From NCBI RefSeq assembly GCF_012843875.1, contig NZ_JABAFY010000027.1, positions 1 through 34,781 of the forward strand: a stretch of DNA of 34,781 nt, read 5' to 3'. The notes below the pieces were generated by a model. The model was not told where the DNA came from, made no database searches, and worked only from the letters and a program-made list of their open reading frames with translations. This DNA is from Desulfovibrio piger (GTDB lineage Bacteria > Desulfobacterota > Desulfovibrionia > Desulfovibrionales > Desulfovibrionaceae). Made by a program: the position numbers and the translations under genes. How positions within the stretch are numbered: position 1 is the first letter of the stretch; each line of letters opens with the position of its first letter. This document shows positions 6,340 to 13,765 of this stretch, piece by piece.

Positions 6340-8154
6340 ATGGCTGGTAGCTATGCAGAACCTATCACGATTGAAGATGCTGTACGCCATATCATAAAAA
6401 ATGAATATCTTTTGCCAGCCATACAGCGCAAATTCATATGGCGGCCTGAGCAAATATGCTCTCTCTTTGACTCCATCATGCGGGGCTACCCCATCAACTC
6501 CTTTATGTTCTGGGAAGTAACTACCCCCCGGATAGCAAATGATTTTCGTTTTTTTCAATTCCTTAAAAATTACTGTGAACGCTTCGGCGAAGATAATCCC
6601 GATCTGGATACCAAAGGTCTGGAACACTTCTGGGCTGTCATCGACGGACAGCAGCGGCTCACCTCTCTCTATATCGGGCTCAAAGGGACGTATGCTTATA
6701 AACTCCCCAGAAAATGGTGGCCATCATCCAAGAATTCTGAAATCTTGCCAGAACGTAAGCTTTATTTGAATATTGCATCTCCTCTTGAAGATGAACAGGC
6801 CGAGGACAAAATACAATATGAATTCAGATTTCTTGCGGGGGAAATATCAGAAAAAATTTGGTTCAAGGTGGGTGATATCTTCTGTATCGACACGAAATGT
6901 ATTGGGAAGAAAGCGACGAGCACACAAGAAATCCATGAATCCATCCTGCATTATCTTAAAGATAATGACTTGGAAACAAATAGCTATGCCTTCAAAACGC
7001 TCTATAGATTATACACAAGCATCCGCACTGAAAAAATAATCAATTATTACAATGAAACAAGTACAGAAATTGATGATATCGTCAGTATTTTTATTCGTAC
7101 CAATCACGGAGGTAGCCCCCTCTCTTTTTCGGATCTGCTGATATCCATTGCTATTGCAAATTTTCAAGACAAAGATATCGATATTAGAAAAGATATCGAT
7201 AATATCGTCTCTGAGGCAGGATCCAAAGGCTTCCACATAACACGTGATTTTGTTCTCAAAACAGCTCTTGCTGTCTCTGGAAACGATATCCAGTTCAAAG
7301 TAAAAAACTTCAACAGAGACAAGGTTGAATCCATAGTAAGAATATGGAAAAATCTTCAACTATGCTTCAATAATACATTTGAACTCATAAAATCCTTTGG
7401 CCTGACAGATGCAGCCCTCAGAGCCAAGAATGCCTTAATTCCTATCGTATACTATGTTTTTCATAAGGCAGACACTTCTCATGAACCGTTGTACAAAACG
7501 ATAAACAATCCGGCAAAGAACAAAGATGAACGCAAAAAGATCTGCCAGTGGCTCCATATGTCCCTGCTGAAAGGAACGTTTGGTGGGCATAGCGATACGA
7601 CACTGGCGACGCTTCGTCGCATCCTGCGCTCAAACCTCTCTGATACAAAACTCTTTCCTCTCGAAAATATCATAGAGCATTTTCGTGGGACATCGAAGGA
7701 CATGACCTTCACTGATGACTTCATCGACAGGCTGCTAAAGACACAAAAAGAGCATCCTTCCTGTTTCTCGATCCTTGCCTTGCTGTATCCTGACCTTGAT
7801 TTCAGCCAGGCGCTCGATATCGACCATATCCATCCTGCGGCAGGCTTCAGAAAAGCCGTCCTTGCCAAGCATGACTGGGGCAACAATCCTGAACGGCGGA
7901 CTTTTTATGAAGCCCCAGAGAACTGGAACGGGATCGCCAACCTGCAGTTGCTGAACGCCTCGGAAAACAAAGCAAAGCAGGACATGGACCTTTCACAATG
8001 GATCCAGAAAAATCCTTCCAGGTTTCCTATGCTGTATGTATCTGAGGACACGGATCTAGGATTCGATGCTTTTGAAAAATTTATCGCCACCCGGCGCCGG
8101 TGCCTGAAACAAAAACTGCAACAGCTCGTCATCTCCGAAGACAGACGGGCCTGA
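6340..8154 (+). CDS. DUF262/DUF1524 GmrSD-type type IV restriction nuclease
   Basis: This 604-residue single-chain protein couples an N-terminal DUF262 domain to a C-terminal DUF1524 His-Me/HNH nuclease, the layout of GmrSD-type enzymes that attack modified phage DNA. DUF262 (ParB/sulfiredoxin-like nucleotidase) shows PAIQRKFIW at 26-34 and the signature DGQQRLTSLY at 102-111. The nuclease shows DIDHIHP at about 493-499, then NLQLLNASENKAK at 534-546. ATG 6340 follows CAGGAGA. The gene is conspicuously AT-rich next to its neighbours and uses A/T-ending codons, which points to horizontal transfer. It is isolated by a terminator before it and another after it, with no methylase or partner, as expected for a modification-dependent system. 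The exact target modification cannot be read from sequence. Confidence 0.9.
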   Translation: MAGSYAEPITIEDAVRHIIKNEYLLPAIQRKFIWRPEQICSLFDSIMRGYPINSFMFWEVTTPRIANDFRFFQFLKNYCERFGEDNPDLDTKGLEHFWAVIDGQQRLTSLYIGLKGTYAYKLPRKWWPSSKNSEILPERKLYLNIASPLEDEQAEDKIQYEFRFLAGEISEKIWFKVGDIFCIDTKCIGKKATSTQEIHESILHYLKDNDLETNSYAFKTLYRLYTSIRTEKIINYYNETSTEIDDIVSIFIRTNHGGSPLSFSDLLISIAIANFQDKDIDIRKDIDNIVSEAGSKGFHITRDFVLKTALAVSGNDIQFKVKNFNRDKVESIVRIWKNLQLCFNNTFELIKSFGLTDAALRAKNALIPIVYYVFHKADTSHEPLYKTINNPAKNKDERKKICQWLHMSLLKGTFGGHSDTTLATLRRILRSNLSDTKLFPLENIIEHFRGTSKDMTFTDDFIDRLLKTQKEHPSCFSILALLYPDLDFSQALDIDHIHPAAGFRKAVLAKHDWGNNPERRTFYEAPENWNGIANLQLLNASENKAKQDMDLSQWIQKNPSRFPMLYVSEDTDLGFDAFEKFIATRRRCLKQKLQQLVISEDRRA

Positions 8155-8253
8155 CAGCCCCATTCCCGGGACGCCGCCACTGCGGCCATCCTTCACCAAT
8201 TCCATACGGACAATCATTTTTTAAACAAATAAAAACAATATGATACAGAAATA

Positions 8254-8287
8254 GCCCCCGCTATTTTCCGGCGGGAGGCATTTTTTT
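8254..8287 (+). terminator. Intrinsic terminator after the restriction gene
   Basis: GCCCCCGC (8254-8261) pairs with GCGGGAGGC (8271-8279), leaving one bulged A, and is followed by A and seven T residues. It isolates the acquired gene from the aromatic operon promoter that starts 13 bases later. Confidence 0.8.
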
Positions 8288-8299
8288 CACGAGCGACTC

Positions 8300-8328
8300 T
8301 TGACAAGCCCCGGGCTGCGGCGTAGCGT
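8300..8328 (+). promoter_or_regulatory. Sigma70 promoter of the aromatic amino-acid operon
   Basis: A perfect TTGACA (8300-8305), a 17-base spacer and TAGCGT (8323-8328) predict a transcription start near 8335. This places the leader peptide start codon about 20 bases into the transcript. Confidence 0.8.
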
Positions 8329-8354
8329 TCATGGAAACTGTTGGAGTTTTGAAG

Positions 8355-8462
8355 ATGTCCCGTTTCGTTCCTGCCACCTCCTGCTACGCTGCTACCGGCT
8401 TTTGCTTTAGCTGGTTTTATTTTGCGTACTTTAGCGGAGCCTGTGGTCAGGAGCTTTGCTGA
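8355..8462 (+). CDS. Aromatic leader peptide (35 aa), attenuator sensor
   Basis: This 35-codon reading frame has a strong ribosome site, TTGGAG at 8341-8346, 8 bases before ATG 8355. It contains six Phe, three Tyr and one Trp codons, eight of them within the 11-codon block FCFSWFYFAYF (codons 16-26). It ends at TGA 8460-8462, just ahead of the attenuator structures. By analogy with the enterobacterial pheL/trpL leaders, ribosome stalling on uncharged tRNA-Phe, -Tyr or -Trp would select the antiterminator and let the downstream aro/phe/tyr genes be transcribed. An in-frame ATG at 8331 lies upstream of the predicted transcription start, so 8355 is preferred. Three Cys codons (10, 17, 30) are also present. 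The composition, position and partner structures make coincidence unlikely, although no homologue was checked. Confidence 0.85.
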   Translation: MSRFVPATSCYAATGFCFSWFYFAYFSGACGQELC

Positions 8463-8495
8463 CATCTTCTGTCAGAGAGTTTCGGGGCCGCAGGC
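8439..8495 (+). promoter_or_regulatory. Candidate antiterminator of the aromatic attenuator
   Basis: GCCTGTGGTC (8439-8448), within the last codons of the leader peptide, can pair over 10 bp (two G-U wobbles) with GGCCGCAGGC (8486-8495). That segment is the ascending arm of the terminator, so the two structures exclude each other. Competing short hairpins GTCAG 8446-8450 / CTGAC 8459-8463 and CTGACA 8459-8464 / TGTCAG 8470-8475 could serve as the default fold. A ribosome at the stop codon would cover 8439-8448 and permit termination. One stalled near codons 16-20 would leave it free. Confidence 0.7.
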
Positions 8496-8517
8496 ATTAG
8501 CCGGCGGCCCTTTTTTT
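8485..8517 (+). terminator. Attenuator terminator before the aromatic operon
   Basis: GGGCCGC (8485-8491) pairs with GCGGCCC (8504-8510). An inner GGC/GCC pair closes an ATTA loop after one A-G mismatch, and seven T residues follow. It stands 23 bases after the leader stop codon and 46 bases before the first structural gene. Confidence 0.9.
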
Positions 8518-8563
8518 GTATCCAGCGCCGCCGGAACGGCTCCATTCCACAAGGAGAGATCCC

Positions 8564-9361
8564 ATGTACCTTGGCAAACAGGTTCGTCTGGAACGCATCA
8601 TCAATCGTGAAACCGGCCGCACTATCATCGTTCCCATGGATCACGGCGTGACCATCGGTGCCGTCGACGGCCTCATCGACATGCGCGAGACCGTCAACGA
8701 CATGGCCGTGGGCGGCGCTGACGCCGTGCTCATGCACAAGGGCCTGGTCCGCTGCTCGCACCGCAACGCCGGCAAGGACGTGGGCCTCATCGTCCACCTG
8801 TCCGCCTCCACCATGCTCTCTCCCCAGGGCAACACCAAGACCCTGGTGGGCACCGTGGAAGAAGGCATCAAGCACGGCGCCGACTGCGTCTCCGTGCATG
8901 TGAACCTGGGCGATCCCAACGAGCGCCTGATGCTGGCCGACCTGGGCCGCGTGGCCGCCGCCTGTGACGACTGGCACATGCCCCTGCTGGCCATGATGTA
9001 CGCCCGCGGCCCGGCCATCAAGAACGGCTTCGCCCCCGACGTGGTGGCCCACTGTGCCCGCGTGGGCGTGGAACTGGGCGCGGACATCGTCAAGGTGCCC
9101 TACACCGGCGACATGGAAAGCTTCTCCGACGTGGTCTCCTCCTGCTGCGTGCCCGTGGTCATCGCCGGCGGCGAACGCATGGATTCCACCCGCGACGTGC
9201 TCCAGATGGTGCACGATGCCATCAAGGCCGGCGGCGCGGGCATCTCCATGGGCCGCAACGTGTTCCAGCATCCCAACCGCATCCAGCTCGTGCGTGCCCT
9301 GCGCGCCATCGTGCATGAGAACGCCACGGTGGAAGAAGCCCTGGCCATCGTGGGAGAATAG
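8564..9361 (+). CDS. ADTH synthase (2-amino-3,7-dideoxy-D-threo-hept-6-ulosonate synthase)
   Basis: This 265-residue class I aldolase-like TIM barrel performs the first step of the alternative (archaeal-type) shikimate entry. It condenses a 6-deoxy-5-ketofructose 1-phosphate-derived unit with L-aspartate semialdehyde. Diagnostic segments are IIVPMDHGVTIGAVDGL (residues 21-37, Asp26), LSPQGNTKTLVGTVEEGI, LLAMMYARGP (Tyr146) and DIVKVPYTGD, where Lys177 is the expected Schiff-base lysine, then VIAGGER. ATG 8564 follows AAGGAGAG (8551-8558). It differs from glycolytic FbaB-type aldolase by its operon: the next gene, two bases after the opening of the overlap region (1-base gap), is 3-dehydroquinate synthase II, its obligate pathway partner. 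Expression is under the leader-peptide attenuator. Confidence 0.9.
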   Translation: MYLGKQVRLERIINRETGRTIIVPMDHGVTIGAVDGLIDMRETVNDMAVGGADAVLMHKGLVRCSHRNAGKDVGLIVHLSASTMLSPQGNTKTLVGTVEEGIKHGADCVSVHVNLGDPNERLMLADLGRVAAACDDWHMPLLAMMYARGPAIKNGFAPDVVAHCARVGVELGADIVKVPYTGDMESFSDVVSSCCVPVVIAGGERMDSTRDVLQMVHDAIKAGGAGISMGRNVFQHPNRIQLVRALRAIVHENATVEEALAIVGE

Positions 9362-9362
9362 C

Positions 9363-10346
9363 ATGGCCCGCATCTACTACCGTTGCGAACCGTTCAGCAA
9401 GGCTGACGTGACCCTGGCCCTGGAATCCGGTGTGGACGGGGTCATCGTGCCCCGCGCCCAGGTGGAGAAGGTGGCCGCCCTTTCCCGCTGCACCGTCTGG
9501 GCCTGCGAGGACGTGGCCAGCGTGCCGCTGAACGTCAAGGCCGACGAGGAGGCCCTGGTGGCCCGCCTCAAGGCCGGTGAGACCGCCTGCCTGGCCCGCG
9601 GCTGGGAGATCATCCCCGTGGAGAACCTGCTGGCCCAGGCCGACAACGTGCTGGCCGAGGCGGGCAGCCTGGAAGAGGCCCGTCTGGCCGCCGGCATCCT
9701 GGAACGCGGCGTGGACGGCATCGTGGTCCTGCCCGAGGCTCTGGCCGAACTCAAGGCCATCGTGGCCCAGTGCAAGATCTCGCAGGGACGCGAGGAATTG
9801 CAGAAAGCCGTCATCACCCGCGTGGAACCCGTGGGCCTGGGGCACCGCGTCTGCGCCGATACCCTTTCGCTGCTCAAGCGTGGCCAGGGTATGCTGGTGG
9901 GCAATTCCAGCGCCTTCACCTTCCTTGTCCATGCCGAGACCGAACACAACGAATATGTGGCCGCCCGTCCCTTCAGGGTCAATGCCGGGGCCGTGCATGC
10001 CTATGCCCGCCTGCCCCATGACAAGACCTGCTACCTGGGCGAACTGGCCGCAGGGCAGGAAGTGCTCATCGTAGGCGCCGACGGCCAGACCAGCGTGGCC
10101 ACGGTGGGCCGGGTCAAGATCGAAGTGCGCCCCATGCTGTTGGTGGAAGCCGAGGCCGAGACCCCCGAAGGCCCCAAGCGCGGCGCCGTGTTCCTGCAGA
10201 ACGCCGAGACCATCCGCCTGACCGCCCCTGACGGCACGCCCCTGAGCGTGGTCAGCCTCAAGCCCGGCGATACGGTGCTCTGCCGTCTGGATCAGGCAGG
10301 CCGCCACTTCGGCATGCGCATCCAGGAAGAGATCCGCGAGGTGTAG
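9363..10346 (+). CDS. 3-Dehydroquinate synthase II (AroB')
   Basis: This 327-residue protein belongs to the archaeal-type NAD-dependent 3-dehydroquinate synthase family. That family oxidatively deaminates and cyclises ADTH to 3-dehydroquinate and replaces the usual DAHP synthase/AroB route. The C-terminal half carries the family-typical run VITRVEPVGLGHRVCADT, LLKRGQGMLVGNSSAFTFLVHAETE, YVAARPFRVNAGAVHAY and YLGELAAGQEVLIV. The N-terminal domain is less conserved. ATG 9363 begins one base after the TAG of the aldolase gene and pheA follows with a one-base gap, indicating tight translational coupling. The presence of both enzymes fits Desulfovibrio-type sulfate reducers, which use this route. 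Confidence 0.9.
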   Translation: MARIYYRCEPFSKADVTLALESGVDGVIVPRAQVEKVAALSRCTVWACEDVASVPLNVKADEEALVARLKAGETACLARGWEIIPVENLLAQADNVLAEAGSLEEARLAAGILERGVDGIVVLPEALAELKAIVAQCKISQGREELQKAVITRVEPVGLGHRVCADTLSLLKRGQGMLVGNSSAFTFLVHAETEHNEYVAARPFRVNAGAVHAYARLPHDKTCYLGELAAGQEVLIVGADGQTSVATVGRVKIEVRPMLLVEAEAETPEGPKRGAVFLQNAETIRLTAPDGTPLSVVSLKPGDTVLCRLDQAGRHFGMRIQEEIREV

Positions 10347-10347
10347 C

Positions 10348-11529
10348 ATGGCCGACGCACATTCCCCCTCCGACGCCCCCCAGCGCCTGACCGCCATCCG
10401 CGGCGAGATCGACAGCGTGGACCAGGAACTGCTGGCCCTGTTCAACCGCCGCGCCGCCCTGAGCCTGGAAGTGGGCCGCATCAAGGCCGGTGACCCCGGC
10501 ATCGTGTTCAAGCCCCTGCGCGAGCGCGAAGTGCTGGACGGCCTGGCCCGCAAGAACGACGGCCCCCTGCCCGAAGAGCACCTGCGTGCCATCTGGCGCG
10601 AGATCTTCTCCTCGTCGCGCGCCCTGCAGCGCCCGCAGAACGTGGCCTATCTGGGCCCGGAAGGCACCTTCTCCTATTTTGCCGGTGTGGAGTATCTGGG
10701 CCATGCCGCCAGCTTCCACCCCTGCAACGACCTGCCGCAGGTCTTCGCCGACGTGCACTCCGGCCGCTGCGAGCTGGGCGTGGTGCCGCTGGAGAATTCC
10801 CTGCAGGGCACCGTGGGCGTCAGCTTCGACCTGTTCCTCAAGTATGACGTGCATATCCAGGCCGAGCTCTTCTCGCCCATCTCGCACTGTCTGCTGAGCC
10901 ACGCCGCCAGCCTGGCCGAGATCACCACGGTCTACTCGCACCCCCAGCCCCTGGCCCAGTGCGGCGGCTGGCTGCGCAGCCATCTGCCCCAGGCCGGTCT
11001 CATCCCCGTGGAGTCCACCGCCGCCGCAGCCCGCATGGCCGCCGCCAATCCGCAGTCTGCGGCCATCGGCAACGGCAAGCTGGCCGACATGACCGGCCTT
11101 TCCATCCTGGCCCGCCGCATCGAGGACGAGCCCGGCAACTGGACGCGCTTCGTCATCATCGGCCCCAAGCCCGTGGGACAGCTGGACAAGCTGCCGCGCA
11201 CCGCGCCCGTGCCCGGCCATACCGGCGCGGACAAGACCTCCATGCTCTTCACCCTGCCGGACAAGTCCGGCACGCTCTCCGGCGTGCTCTCCCTGCTGGC
11301 CGAGCACAAGATCAACATGCGCAAGCTGGAGTCCCGCCCCCTGCGCGGCCAGTGCTGGAAGTACGTCTTCTTCACGGACGTGGAATGCGACCTGACCGCC
11401 CCCCAGTATGAGGATCTGCTCCGGAAGCTGGCCGAGACCTGCACCAGCTTCCGCATCCTGGGCAGCTACGCCACCGGCCCGCAGCTGGACCGCATCGGCC
11501 TGGACGACGTGGAGGACAGCCATGCCTAG
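10348..11529 (+). CDS. pheA: Bifunctional chorismate mutase / prephenate dehydratase
   Basis: This 393-residue P-protein converts chorismate to prephenate and then to phenylpyruvate for phenylalanine synthesis. Residues about 13-95 form an AroQ-type chorismate mutase (AIRGEIDSVDQELLALFNRRAALSLEVG). Residues about 98-280 form the dehydratase, with YLGPEGTFSYFA, GVVPLENSLQGTVGVSFDLF, ESTAAAARMA and the catalytic Thr-Arg-Phe in NWTRFVIIG. Residues about 298-375 form an ACT domain, with DKSGTLSGVLSLLAEHKINMRKLESRP. The ACT GALV-like and ESRP motifs bind Phe, so feedback inhibition by phenylalanine is expected on top of the attenuator. ATG 10348 sits one base after the preceding TAG, and its 3' end overlaps the EPSP synthase start by 8 bases. 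Confidence 0.96.
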   Translation: MADAHSPSDAPQRLTAIRGEIDSVDQELLALFNRRAALSLEVGRIKAGDPGIVFKPLREREVLDGLARKNDGPLPEEHLRAIWREIFSSSRALQRPQNVAYLGPEGTFSYFAGVEYLGHAASFHPCNDLPQVFADVHSGRCELGVVPLENSLQGTVGVSFDLFLKYDVHIQAELFSPISHCLLSHAASLAEITTVYSHPQPLAQCGGWLRSHLPQAGLIPVESTAAAARMAAANPQSAAIGNGKLADMTGLSILARRIEDEPGNWTRFVIIGPKPVGQLDKLPRTAPVPGHTGADKTSMLFTLPDKSGTLSGVLSLLAEHKINMRKLESRPLRGQCWKYVFFTDVECDLTAPQYEDLLRKLAETCTSFRILGSYATGPQLDRIGLDDVEDSHA

Positions 11530-12892
11530 TCCCGATACCGCCTGCGTGCGGGCCCCGGCCTCCAAATCCATCTCGCACCGCTACTGCATCGGCGCGGCCC
11601 TGGCCCACGGCACGTCCGAGCTGCACCATGTGCTGGACAGCCGCGACCTGGAATGCACCCGCGCCATCCTCTGCGCCGCCGGTGCCCGTATGGAAGCCCT
11701 GCCCGGCGAGGAAGGCGGCTGGCGCGTCACCGGCATGGACGGCCGTCCCCGGGGCGGCACGGGCACGCCCCTGAGCTGCGACGTGCACGAATCCGGCACC
11801 ACCTGCCGCCTGCTGACCGCCGTGCTGGCCGCCGGTCACGGCCTGTTCCGCATCCACGGCGCGCCGCGCATGCACGAGCGGCCCATCGACGAGCTGACCC
11901 GCGCCCTGGAGGCCCTGGGCACGGACGTGCGCTTCGAGCAGCGTCCCGACTGTCCGCCCCTGCTGCTGCGGGCCGCAGGCCTCGATCCCGCCCGCAACGG
12001 CGGCCGCGTGCGCCTGGGCATGGATGCCTCCAGCCAGTATTTCTCCGGCCTGCTGCTGGCAGCGCCGCTGGCCCCGGCACCCCTGTGCGTGGAACTGGGC
12101 GGGCAAAAGGCCGTGTCCTGGCCCTATGTGGGCCTGACCCTGCATTGCCTGGAAGATTTCGGCATCCGCTTCAGCGTGGAGACCCGCGAGCCCGACGGCC
12201 CGTGGCAGCTCCTGCCCGACGGCGGCTGGCGCGCCCTGCGCACCGCCCGCCCCGACGGCCTGCGTATCACCGTGCAGCCCGGCACCTACCGTGCGGGCAG
12301 CTATCAGGTGGAAGGCGACTGGTCCGGGGCCTCCTACCTGCTGGCCGCCGGTGCCCTGGGCAGCCGCCCCGTGCGTGTGGACGGCCTGAGGGCCGATTCC
12401 CTGCAGGGCGACCGCGCCATGCTGGACATCCTGCGCGCCATGGGCGCCCGCGCCGAGGTGGAGGGCACGTCCATCACCGTGCATCCTTCGGCCCTGCACG
12501 GCGTGGACGTGGACATGGGCCATTGCCCGGATCTGGTGCCCACGGTGGCCGTGCTGGCCGCCTTTGCCCAGGGGCCCACCCGGGTGCGCAACGTGGCCCA
12601 TCTGCGCATCAAGGAATCCGACCGCATCACCGCCCCGGCCACCGAGCTGGCCCGTCTGGGCGTGCGTGTGGACGAGCATGACGACGGCCTGACCGTCCAC
12701 GGTACGGGCCCCGACGGCCCGGCCTGGGACGAGGCCGCGCGCTTCTCGGCCCACAACGACCACCGCATCGCCATGTCCCTGGCCCTGCTGGGCCTGCCCC
12801 ACGGCAAGCGTATGGACGCCCTGCTGGACGATCCGCTGGTGGTGCGCAAGTCCTTCCCCACCTTCTGGAAGGTCTGGGAGCGGCTGCTGTGA
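11522..12892 (+). CDS. aroA: 3-Phosphoshikimate 1-carboxyvinyltransferase (EPSP synthase)
   Basis: This 456-residue enzyme transfers the enolpyruvyl group of PEP to shikimate 3-phosphate. Seen motifs are APASKSISHRY (Lys15, Arg20), SGTTCRLL (91-98), HERPIDELTRALEALG, the SSQYFSG substrate-binding loop, GDWSGASYLLAA, DLVPTVAVLAAFA, LRIKESDRI, NDHRIAMSLALLG and KSFPTFW. ATG 11522 lies inside the last codons of pheA (ATGCCTAG arrangement), so translation is coupled. The position equivalent to E. coli Pro101, after the GTxxR arginine, is Leu97 here. Substitutions at that site are known to affect glyphosate binding in class I enzymes, and the surrounding ESGTTCR is not the classic NAGTAMRP. The consequence for this enzyme is inference. 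Confidence 0.96.
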   Translation: MPSPDTACVRAPASKSISHRYCIGAALAHGTSELHHVLDSRDLECTRAILCAAGARMEALPGEEGGWRVTGMDGRPRGGTGTPLSCDVHESGTTCRLLTAVLAAGHGLFRIHGAPRMHERPIDELTRALEALGTDVRFEQRPDCPPLLLRAAGLDPARNGGRVRLGMDASSQYFSGLLLAAPLAPAPLCVELGGQKAVSWPYVGLTLHCLEDFGIRFSVETREPDGPWQLLPDGGWRALRTARPDGLRITVQPGTYRAGSYQVEGDWSGASYLLAAGALGSRPVRVDGLRADSLQGDRAMLDILRAMGARAEVEGTSITVHPSALHGVDVDMGHCPDLVPTVAVLAAFAQGPTRVRNVAHLRIKESDRITAPATELARLGVRVDEHDDGLTVHGTGPDGPAWDEAARFSAHNDHRIAMSLALLGLPHGKRMDALLDDPLVVRKSFPTFWKVWERLL

Positions 12893-13719
12893 GCCCGGAC
12901 AGCTCGACGACGCCCAGGGCGGACGGAGACGGCACCGGCCCCGTGCCCGCGAAAGCCGCAGCCTCCCTGCGGGGATGCGCAGTGCTGGTCGTTGGCTGCC
13001 GGGGCCGCATGGGCGCCATGCTCTGCCGCCGCGGCAAGGCCGCCGGTCTGGACATGCGGGGCGTGGACGTGCCCCTGACGGATGCGGTGCTGGCCCCGGC
13101 CTGCAAGGATGCGGCCCTGGCGCTGCTCTGCGTGCCCGCGGCCGTCTTTGCCGACGTGGCCGCCACGGTCTGCGCCCATCTGCCCGCCACGGCCATCCTG
13201 GCCGACATCACGTCGGTGAAGGTGCGGCCCCTGCAGCAGATGGAAGCCATCTGGCCCGGCCCGGTGGTGGGCACGCACCCGCTCTTTGGCCCGGCCACGC
13301 CCGACGAGGACGGCCTGCCCGTGACCGTCACGCCCGGCCGCACGGCCCGCGAGGAAGACACGGCCCTGGTGGAGGCCTTTTTCCGGGCCCTGGGGTGCAG
13401 CACCTTCCGGGCCACGGCCGACGAGCACGACCGCGCCATGGCCCGCGTCCAGAACATGAACTTCATCACCAACCTGGCCTACTTTGCCCTGCTGGCAGGG
13501 CAGGAAGACCTGTTGCCCTATATCACCCCCTCCTTCCGCCGCCGCCTGCACGCGGCAGAGAAGATGCTCACCGAGGACGGCACCATGTTCACCGGCCTCT
13601 TCGAGGCCAATCCGTACAGCCACGAGGCCGTGCGCCAGTATCGCAAGATGCTCAACGTGGCCGCTGCCGGTGATATCGAACTGCTCTGCCGCCGCGCGCA
13701 GTGGTGGTGGAAAAAATGA
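12889..13719 (+). CDS. tyrA: Prephenate dehydrogenase
   Basis: This 276-residue NAD(P)-dependent enzyme oxidises and decarboxylates prephenate to 4-hydroxyphenylpyruvate for tyrosine synthesis. A Rossmann motif VLVVGCRGRMGAML (residues 32-45) follows a non-conserved N-terminal extension of about 27 residues. ILADITSVKV and VVGTHPLFGP carry the catalytic-site Ser and His, and an all-helical dimerisation domain follows (HDRAMARVQNMNFITNLAYFALL). The GTG start at 12889 overlaps the aroA stop (GTGA) and is preceded by GGGAG at suitable spacing. No ACT or fused mutase domain is present, so the mutase activity comes from pheA. It is the last gene of the attenuator-controlled operon, closed by the terminator at 13724. 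Confidence 0.93.
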   Translation: MSPDSSTTPRADGDGTGPVPAKAAASLRGCAVLVVGCRGRMGAMLCRRGKAAGLDMRGVDVPLTDAVLAPACKDAALALLCVPAAVFADVAATVCAHLPATAILADITSVKVRPLQQMEAIWPGPVVGTHPLFGPATPDEDGLPVTVTPGRTAREEDTALVEAFFRALGCSTFRATADEHDRAMARVQNMNFITNLAYFALLAGQEDLLPYITPSFRRRLHAAEKMLTEDGTMFTGLFEANPYSHEAVRQYRKMLNVAAAGDIELLCRRAQWWWKK

Positions 13720-13723
13720 CAGC

Positions 13724-13765
13724 GGGGAAGGGAGCGCCCTGGACAAGCGCTTTCCTTCCCCTTTT
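13724..13765 (+). terminator. Intrinsic terminator ending the aromatic operon
   Basis: GGGGAAGGGAGCGC (13724-13737) pairs with GCGCTTTCCTTCCCC (13747-13761), leaving one bulge, and is followed by TTTT. It begins four bases after the tyrA stop. Its GGGGAAGG arm resembles the terminator at 3821. Confidence 0.88.

Follow-up and report, generated by a model that had tools for sequence, protein, structure and literature searches.

An aromatic-rich leader peptide and two competing RNA helices before the ADTH synthase operon of Desulfovibrio piger: a probable attenuator with re-coded copies in Desulfovibrionaceae

The window analysed here is a stretch of 34,781 nucleotides from Desulfovibrio piger (NCBI RefSeq assembly GCF_012843875.1, contig NZ_JABAFY010000027.1, positions 1 to 34,781 of the forward strand). 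It contains a five-gene operon of aromatic amino acid synthesis, which begins with the genes of 2-amino-3,7-dideoxy-D-threo-hept-6-ulosonate synthase (ADTH synthase, ADTHS) and 3-dehydroquinate synthase II (DHQS II). In front of this operon lie a short open reading frame (ORF) dense in aromatic codons, an intrinsic terminator and an antiterminator, and these elements are conserved in related genomes. Judged from sequence, the operon is very probably controlled by classical ribosome-mediated transcription attenuation, with a codon block that would respond if any aromatic amino acid is missing. The class of mechanism is known; the leader of the window is a triple-coded variant, which is conserved through the family Desulfovibrionaceae and is one of a re-coded set. 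The initial annotation had read this region as an attenuator; this reading is strongly supported, since the ORF and both RNA elements occur in the window and persist, with covariation, among its relatives.

The features are compiled in Table 1. The leader ORF encodes the peptide MSRFVPATSCYAATGFCFSWFYFAYFSGACGQELC, and eight of its codons 16-26 specify an aromatic residue (five Phe, two Tyr, one Trp). When the 300 nt before the window's ADTHS gene were shuffled 1000 times with dinucleotides preserved, only three shuffles held an ORF that equalled the leader's density of 7 aromatic residues in 10. A second in-frame ATG lies at position 8331. In the record closest to the window, D. piger ATCC 29098 (L001), whose ADTHS is 100% identical, the ORF opens with GTG at the equivalent position; for this reason 8355 is the likelier start. 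The 35 codons, the strong ribosome site and the aromatic share of 8/11, all proposed initially, are borne out by the sequence, the last also by the shuffles.

The terminator stem is formed by the pairs 8484-8491/8504-8511 and 8493-8495/8500-8502. In the core of the antiterminator (8439-8448 with 8486-8495), all ten pairs can form, eight of them Watson-Crick and two U-G, and the helix is prolonged by pairing of 8450-8457 with 8476-8483. Terminator and antiterminator are mutually exclusive, because strand 3 is common to both. The exclusive antiterminator and the terminator with its run of seven T, as originally annotated, are thus present in the window, and both are kept among the relatives described below. 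The fold of the leader (8331-8520) has an energy of -84.6 kcal/mol (z = -6.75), which none of 200 shuffles equalled. When 7800-9200 was searched against 4227 Rfam families, with E-values up to 1 admitted, three matches came up, all of them sub-threshold; no leader family and no T-box or riboswitch model was among them. Directly 5' of the leader promoter, at 8257-8275, stands another terminator-like hairpin, which probably belongs to the upstream gene.

Table 1. Features of the leader region and of the operon behind it (positions in the window)
Feature	Position	Strand	Basis
Promoter: -35 TTGACA 8300-8305, 17-nt spacer, weak -10 TAGCGT 8323-8328	8300..8328	+	sequence
Ribosome-binding site GGAG of leader ORF	8343..8346	+	sequence, 8 nt 5' of ATG
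Leader peptide ORF, 35 codons (ATG 8355, stop TGA 8460-8462)	8355..8462	+	sequence, chance tests, relatives
Strand 1: 5' part of leader ORF pairing with strand 2, approximate limits	8367..8389	+	minimum free energy fold, relatives
Control codons FCFSWFYFAYF (codons 16-26)	8400..8432	+	sequence, shuffles
Strand 2: antiterminator 5' arm, core 8439-8448, extension 8450-8457	8439..8457	+	pairing, relatives
Strand 3: antiterminator 3' arm, extension 8476-8483, core 8486-8495; common to terminator	8476..8495	+	pairing, relatives
Intrinsic terminator, T-run 8511-8517	8484..8517	+	stem, relatives
ADTH synthase (ADTHS)	8564..9361	+	TIGR01949 394 bits, cut-off 299
3-dehydroquinate synthase II (DHQS II)	9375..10346	+	NF002628 551 bits, cut-off 508
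pheA, chorismate mutase/prephenate dehydratase	10348..11529	+	NF008865 249 bits, cut-off 219
aroA, EPSP synthase (ORF limits)	11408..12892	+	TIGR01356 361 bits, cut-off 287
tyrA, prephenate dehydrogenase family	12889..13719	+	prephenate dehydrogenase models, all under curated cut-offs
Terminator-like hairpin, may close operon	about 13724..13764	+	by eye

From this arrangement we infer the following course of events. Transcription would begin after the TTGACA promoter, and the leader ORF would be translated while it is being made. With Phe-, Tyr- and Trp-tRNA all charged, the ribosome would cross the codon block and cover strand 2; strand 3 could then pair with strand 4, and transcription would end near 8517. 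If any one of the three were short, the ribosome would stall within the block and leave strand 2 bare; bare strand 2 would pair with strand 3, no terminator would form and the five genes would be transcribed. The codon block would act as an OR gate for starvation, and stalls at its last codons may themselves cover part of strand 2. In the absence of translation, strand 1 would pair with strand 2 and termination would win; a following ribosome could cover strand 1, which would prevent 1:2 pairing during a stall.

The trpL and pheL leaders of Escherichia coli likewise combine a leader ORF with regulatory codons, a terminator and a competing antiterminator. They each serve one amino acid, whereas the block of the window mixes Phe, Tyr and Trp codons; moreover, unlike in E. 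coli, the ORF of the window runs through strand 2, and strand 1 precedes the codon block. The ilvGMEDA and thr leaders of enterobacteria are also cases of one leader counting more than one amino acid of a branched pathway; these are other amino acids than those of the window leader, and the likeness is drawn without sequence comparison.

For the comparison with relatives, 80 ADTHS loci were fetched. Two of these (L029, L077) stop at a contig edge, which leaves 78 loci with enough upstream sequence. An aromatic leader, i.e. at least 5 aromatic residues in 10, precedes ADTHS in 77 of the 78; the only locus without one (L012) carries an orphan ADTHS copy that is not followed by DHQS II. At least 6 aromatic residues in 10 are found in 72 of the 77 leaders. 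If only the 300 nt upstream are considered, this higher density occurs in 63/77 loci, compared with 23/1540 shuffles and 1/172 control stretches, which were taken from 3-6 kb upstream. Loci of Nitratidesulfovibrio, Halodesulfovibrio and Desulfohalobiaceae that had appeared leaderless in the 300-nt scan were rejected as such, the leader being found further upstream; in L072 it stands before a tandem ADTHS copy. In five loci of Nitratidesulfovibrio and of records named Desulfovibrio (L062, L064, L065, L067, L073), attenuator and ADTHS are set apart by GC-rich sequence of about 230 nt, which is similar among these loci and does not belong to the leader. All three aromatic amino acids occur within the last 40 residues in 65 of the 78 leaders, the window included, and Trp is missing from 12. 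The geometry is narrow: the distance from the last aromatic codon to the core of strand 2 has a median of 7 nt (range 4-13), and the stop codon follows the start of this core after a median of 20 nt (15-30). These values, like the frame and TTGAC counts given below, are based on 74 loci, from which L001, L004, L039 and L073 are omitted.

Both folds were examined in an alignment of 59 sequences. These were thinned by hand from 73 rows, which remained after L001 and L044 had been left out, L039, which has no strand 2 core, had been lost, and the duplicates L004 and L073 had been removed. In the terminator, 95.8% of the cells are paired; 7 of the 11 pairs changed on both sides, giving 64 such cells versus a shuffle mean of 16.7. 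In the antiterminator, 94.6% of the cells are paired, compared with 37-42% for versions in which the helix was slid. Strand 3 takes part in both helices; the terminator could therefore account for the majority of changes in this strand. The pair of columns 14 and 90 of the antiterminator is U-A, replaced by C-G in 6 of the 59 rows, and in five of these six column 90 is unpaired in the terminator. More generally, column 90 lies opposite a terminator mismatch in 39 of the 59 rows, in which columns 14/90 are 32 times U-A, five times C-G, once U-G and once A.G. The alignment across Desulfovibrionaceae, which the initial annotation had proposed as a check, thus found the aromatic ORF and both folds kept.

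Of the 74 leaders, 69 read strand 2 in frame 1, three in frame 0 and two in frame 2, and leaders before a symporter gene, which are introduced below, likewise read it in differing frames. Since every frame is used, it is the bases of strand 2 that are kept, not the peptide. This bears on an alternative in which the ORF encodes a functional aromatic microprotein, the hairpin is the terminator of that gene, and ADTHS has a promoter of its own downstream of 8517. A conserved ORF with a ribosome site and a strong terminator would fit such a gene; yet the length and sequence of the peptide vary, and the antiterminator, which is kept, would lack a role. The negative promoter scan of 8155-8700 described below has no bearing either way on whether transcription starts after 8517. 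On balance, we regard the microprotein as hardly credible.

Several results weigh against attenuation as outlined above. Of the five measures by which the antiterminator was compared with shuffles, two do not exceed chance, namely the numbers of double-change pairs and of further pair types; when this helix was slid, the resulting versions had 5-15 double-change cells, compared with 9 in the actual one. When each of the 78 loci, near-copies included, was compared with its own shuffles, more than 5 of 100 paired as well as the real antiterminator in nine cases. In the control block, the majority base reaches 0.88, 0.82 and 0.79 at codon positions 1 to 3, which is only a slight bias. The -10 element of the promoter is weak, agreeing with the consensus at only three of six positions, and a strict scan of 8155-8700 found no promoter. 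For pairing between strands 1 and 2, just 15 of 76 loci (L039 and L044 omitted) had no more than 5 among 100 shuffles that paired as well; in addition, since strand 1 is situated 5' of the codon block, a stalled ribosome does not simply mask it as in E. coli trpL.

For the promoter and for strand 1, there are observations on the other side as well. The -35 box is an exact match to the consensus, and 66 of the 74 loci have TTGAC at a distance of 95-200 nt 5' of strand 2 (shuffles: mean 6.9, maximum 14). Hence, of the promoter annotated initially, the -35 part has gained support from the relatives, whereas the -10 part remains weak. Strand 1 sits in the first third of the leader ORF. Its CCAC motif was found in 49 of 70 loci, for which the shuffle mean is 21.6, and none of 2000 permutations with exchanged partners paired as well as the strands' own partners; relatedness was not removed in these structural tests, and both tests of strand 1 omit, in addition to L039 and L044, the loci L001, L004, L062, L065, L067 and L073.

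A covariance model derived from the alignment gave matches, at E-values up to 0.001, which are rough, in 134 of 149 genomes of the family, many of which were hit several times; ADTHS was found in 140 of the 149. The window genome (G000) has one match and a further one to the 3' half of the leader. Twenty matches, picked from genomes with several, were inspected: 12 stand before ADTHS and seven before a sodium:solute symporter, and one (L102) looked like chance and was rejected. The symporter was identified by PF00474 for L097 and by likeness to L097 for the others. An aromatic leader was found at 24 of 30 symporter loci, at all 30 ADTHS loci L144-L173 and at 14 of 20 further ADTHS copies; a terminator scan of L157, L158, L167, L178 and L192 found none.

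The codons of these leaders differ with the gene behind them. Leaders are called Phe-led if Phe makes up at least 80% of their Phe, Tyr and Trp residues, and Trp was counted within the densest 12 residues. The class counts include near-copies and only copies with a leader; L046, L065 and L068, for which no class could be assigned, are left out, and so are L187, L188 and L190-L193 among the orphan leaders, as their downstream context had not been fetched. Before DHQS II operons coding is mixed, with Tyr in all 81 leaders and Trp in 67. Orphan ADTHS genes have 18 Phe-led and two Tyr-led leaders among 27, and five of the 27 contain Trp. Before the symporter, 19 of 24 leaders are Phe-led; the other five are Tyr-rich, all belong to genus g22 and precede tandem symporters (L134, L137, L140-L142), and none of the 24 contains Trp. 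Phe-led leaders at symporter loci come from several genera (L097, L114-L128, L130, L133, L135, L136) and suggest that the symporter transports phenylalanine. Since codon content follows gene content, these counts support the attenuator reading.

Individual genomes combine several such leaders. In seven genomes with surroundings examined, a leader with Phe, Tyr and Trp heads the array ADTHS-DHQS II-pheA-aroA-tyrA-trpE-trpGD-trpC-trpF-trpB-trpA; the contig of L211 ends before trpB and trpA of this aro-trp supraoperon. A second ADTHS gene without DHQS II follows a Phe leader in G141, G063, G066 and G074, a Tyr-rich leader in G171 and G183, both of genus g26, and a Phe/Tyr leader in G095. At the third ADTHS copy, present in four of seven genomes, no leader was found (L196, L199, L204, L207). 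Among extra ADTHS copies, L186-L191 have Tyr-rich leaders, e.g. FFGPYYYYGLRARGLAGG (genus g26), and L185 and L193 have Phe/Tyr leaders. Taken together, it is probable that a single RNA scaffold, of which a genome holds several copies that are re-coded to their context, constitutes a codon-programmed attenuation regulon of aromatic metabolism in Desulfovibrionaceae, which would replace the TyrR/TrpR repressor logic of enterobacteria. If so, each ADTHS isozyme or presumed aromatic transporter would answer to Phe, to Tyr or to any of the three, the codons of a leader would foretell the substrate of the gene behind it, for instance of a Phe symporter, and they would shift on loss of a branch, such as trp, in a lineage.

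The re-coding also bears on whether the leader is an arrest peptide that senses a ligand rather than a counter of charged tRNA. TnaC is an arrest peptide of this kind, which responds to free Trp. The leader would suit such a role in that its peptide is strongly aromatic and keeps a constant position ahead of the hairpins. However, 32 leaders ending in AYF have 22 distinct 8-residue blocks, in which only the aromatic density is kept; a run of nine Phe occurs in L135; the tail of the leader is read in three frames; and the codon content tracks the gene downstream. We therefore consider an arrest peptide very improbable and retain attenuation by charged tRNA.

Which of the amino acids are counted is a separate matter. 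The attenuator might in effect respond only to Phe, or only to Phe and Tyr, with its one Trp codon being incidental. The window has one Trp codon compared with five for Phe and two for Tyr, its genome has a separate trp operon behind a leader of its own with two adjacent Trp codons, and of the Trp-less leaders in the family, four of the ten that were searched come from genomes keeping trpC and trpA. Against this stand the distribution of Trp over the three gene classes given above and the absence of Trp in three of four lineages without trp genes. Such restricted sensing is thus unlikely, though by no means negligible. The sensing of all three amino acids, as initially proposed, is supported by comparison only, i.e. 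by the leaders in which all three are coded and by single-amino-acid leaders before single-purpose genes.

The link between Trp codons and trp genes was followed in 50 loci, comprising 10 of the 12 Trp-less leaders (all except L039 and L044) and 40 others chosen by hand. Both trpC and trpA are missing in 6/10 Trp-less versus 1/40 Trp-bearing cases (Fisher p = 8.5e-5), and trpC alone is missing in 6/10 versus 3/40 (p = 8.7e-4); many of the genomes are metagenome bins, so that the absence of a gene is no proof. On a quick tree, in which 22 of 47 inner branches are starred and the direction of change was not inferred, trp presence changes at least four times and Trp presence in the leader seven times. 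Three of the four lineages without trp are concordant, and four lineages without Trp in the leader keep trp. Sign tests over independent pairs do not reach 0.05, and this, like the four Trp-less cases with trp genes mentioned above, weighs against the reading of the leader set out earlier. The connection of missing Trp codons with missing trp genes is suggestive, and not significant with relatedness taken into account.

As to the operon itself, the identities assigned initially to its five genes agree with NCBIfam, for tyrA only with models under their curated cut-offs. For the chorismate mutase domain of pheA, the TIGR01807 score is slightly below the cut-off. The true start of aroA probably lies further in than the 5' limit of its ORF. 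The hairpin after tyrA probably closes the operon and supports a unit of five genes. In Desulfovibrio hydrothermalis, the transcripts from ADTHS to at least trpD are listed as falling together at high pressure, with log2 values of -2.9 to -3.9 at 26 versus 0.1 MPa in eight rows (PMC4162548); this joint drop is compatible with a single transcript and does not test attenuation. The separate trp operon of the window genome lies on another contig (G000:C63) and comprises trpE, a trpG-trpD fusion, trpC, trpF, trpB and trpA, some of them named by models scoring under curated cut-offs. It is preceded by the short ORF MSCTFSNICFRTFWWRASQCTGDVQA with the two adjacent Trp codons (L081:713-793; L083), which is also followed by a terminator-like hairpin.

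The initial annotation knew of no described case in a sulfate reducer using the ADTH route; this was too strong. Table 7 of Song et al. (2005; PMC1173090) has an entry for a putative attenuator in front of the D. vulgaris supraoperon aroA'-aroB'-aroQ-pheA-aroF-tyrA-[trp]; the entry comes from Merino's database, a collection of attenuator predictions. This supraoperon has the same operon head as the window, in a related organism, and is orthologous. Section 36 and the Table 7 passage of that paper give no leader peptide, codon content, antiterminator, conservation in the family or re-coded copies. A description of leader peptide, codon content, conservation and re-coded copies was not found among the open-licence matches listed, and prior art may be fuller.

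In E. coli, the DAHP synthases AroF, AroG and AroH are described as being subject to feedback by Tyr, Phe and Trp, respectively, and to control by TyrR and TrpR (PMC5343134). Like the ADTHS copies, they are isozymes of the entry step, each tied to one aromatic end product; they use feedback inhibition and repressor proteins, where the ADTHS copies would use separately coded leaders. By analogy, the re-coded leaders resemble an RNA-level counterpart of this isozyme logic.

The leader offers a testable control circuit for aromatic synthesis via ADTH and DHQS II in a family of anaerobes that includes D. piger of the human gut, and the set of re-coded copies makes the codon logic itself testable. 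Moreover, codon content provides a handle on the substrates of unassigned transporters and, perhaps, on auxotrophy. According to an Rfam-based survey (PMC3766115), only leader models for His, Trp, Thr and Leu were used, Desulfovibrionales were covered as a group of 10, apparently genomes, and amino acid attenuators may have originated in gamma-proteobacteria. The leaders of the family and leader-like ORFs in some other Desulfobacterota argue for a broader distribution of leader-peptide attenuation, which models of known families can overlook.

Outside the family, the covariance model matched 26 genomes of a phylum sample, mostly weakly, and among 12 inspected matches only L212 stands before ADTHS. 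The others include, by eye, Tyr-rich short ORFs with terminators before DAHP synthase-like genes (L218, L219) and Tyr-rich short ORFs before a gene resembling ADP-forming acyl-CoA synthetase (L215 and L223, the latter with YYYYYYYY). In L214, L217 and L222, the short ORF is rich in Ala (AAAAAAW in the latter two) and is accompanied by a hairpin of similar kind before a large ORF; these are possible alanine leaders. Finally, L216 has a Trp-rich short ORF (INLWWRAW) and a terminator before a trpE homologue (tblastn 40%).

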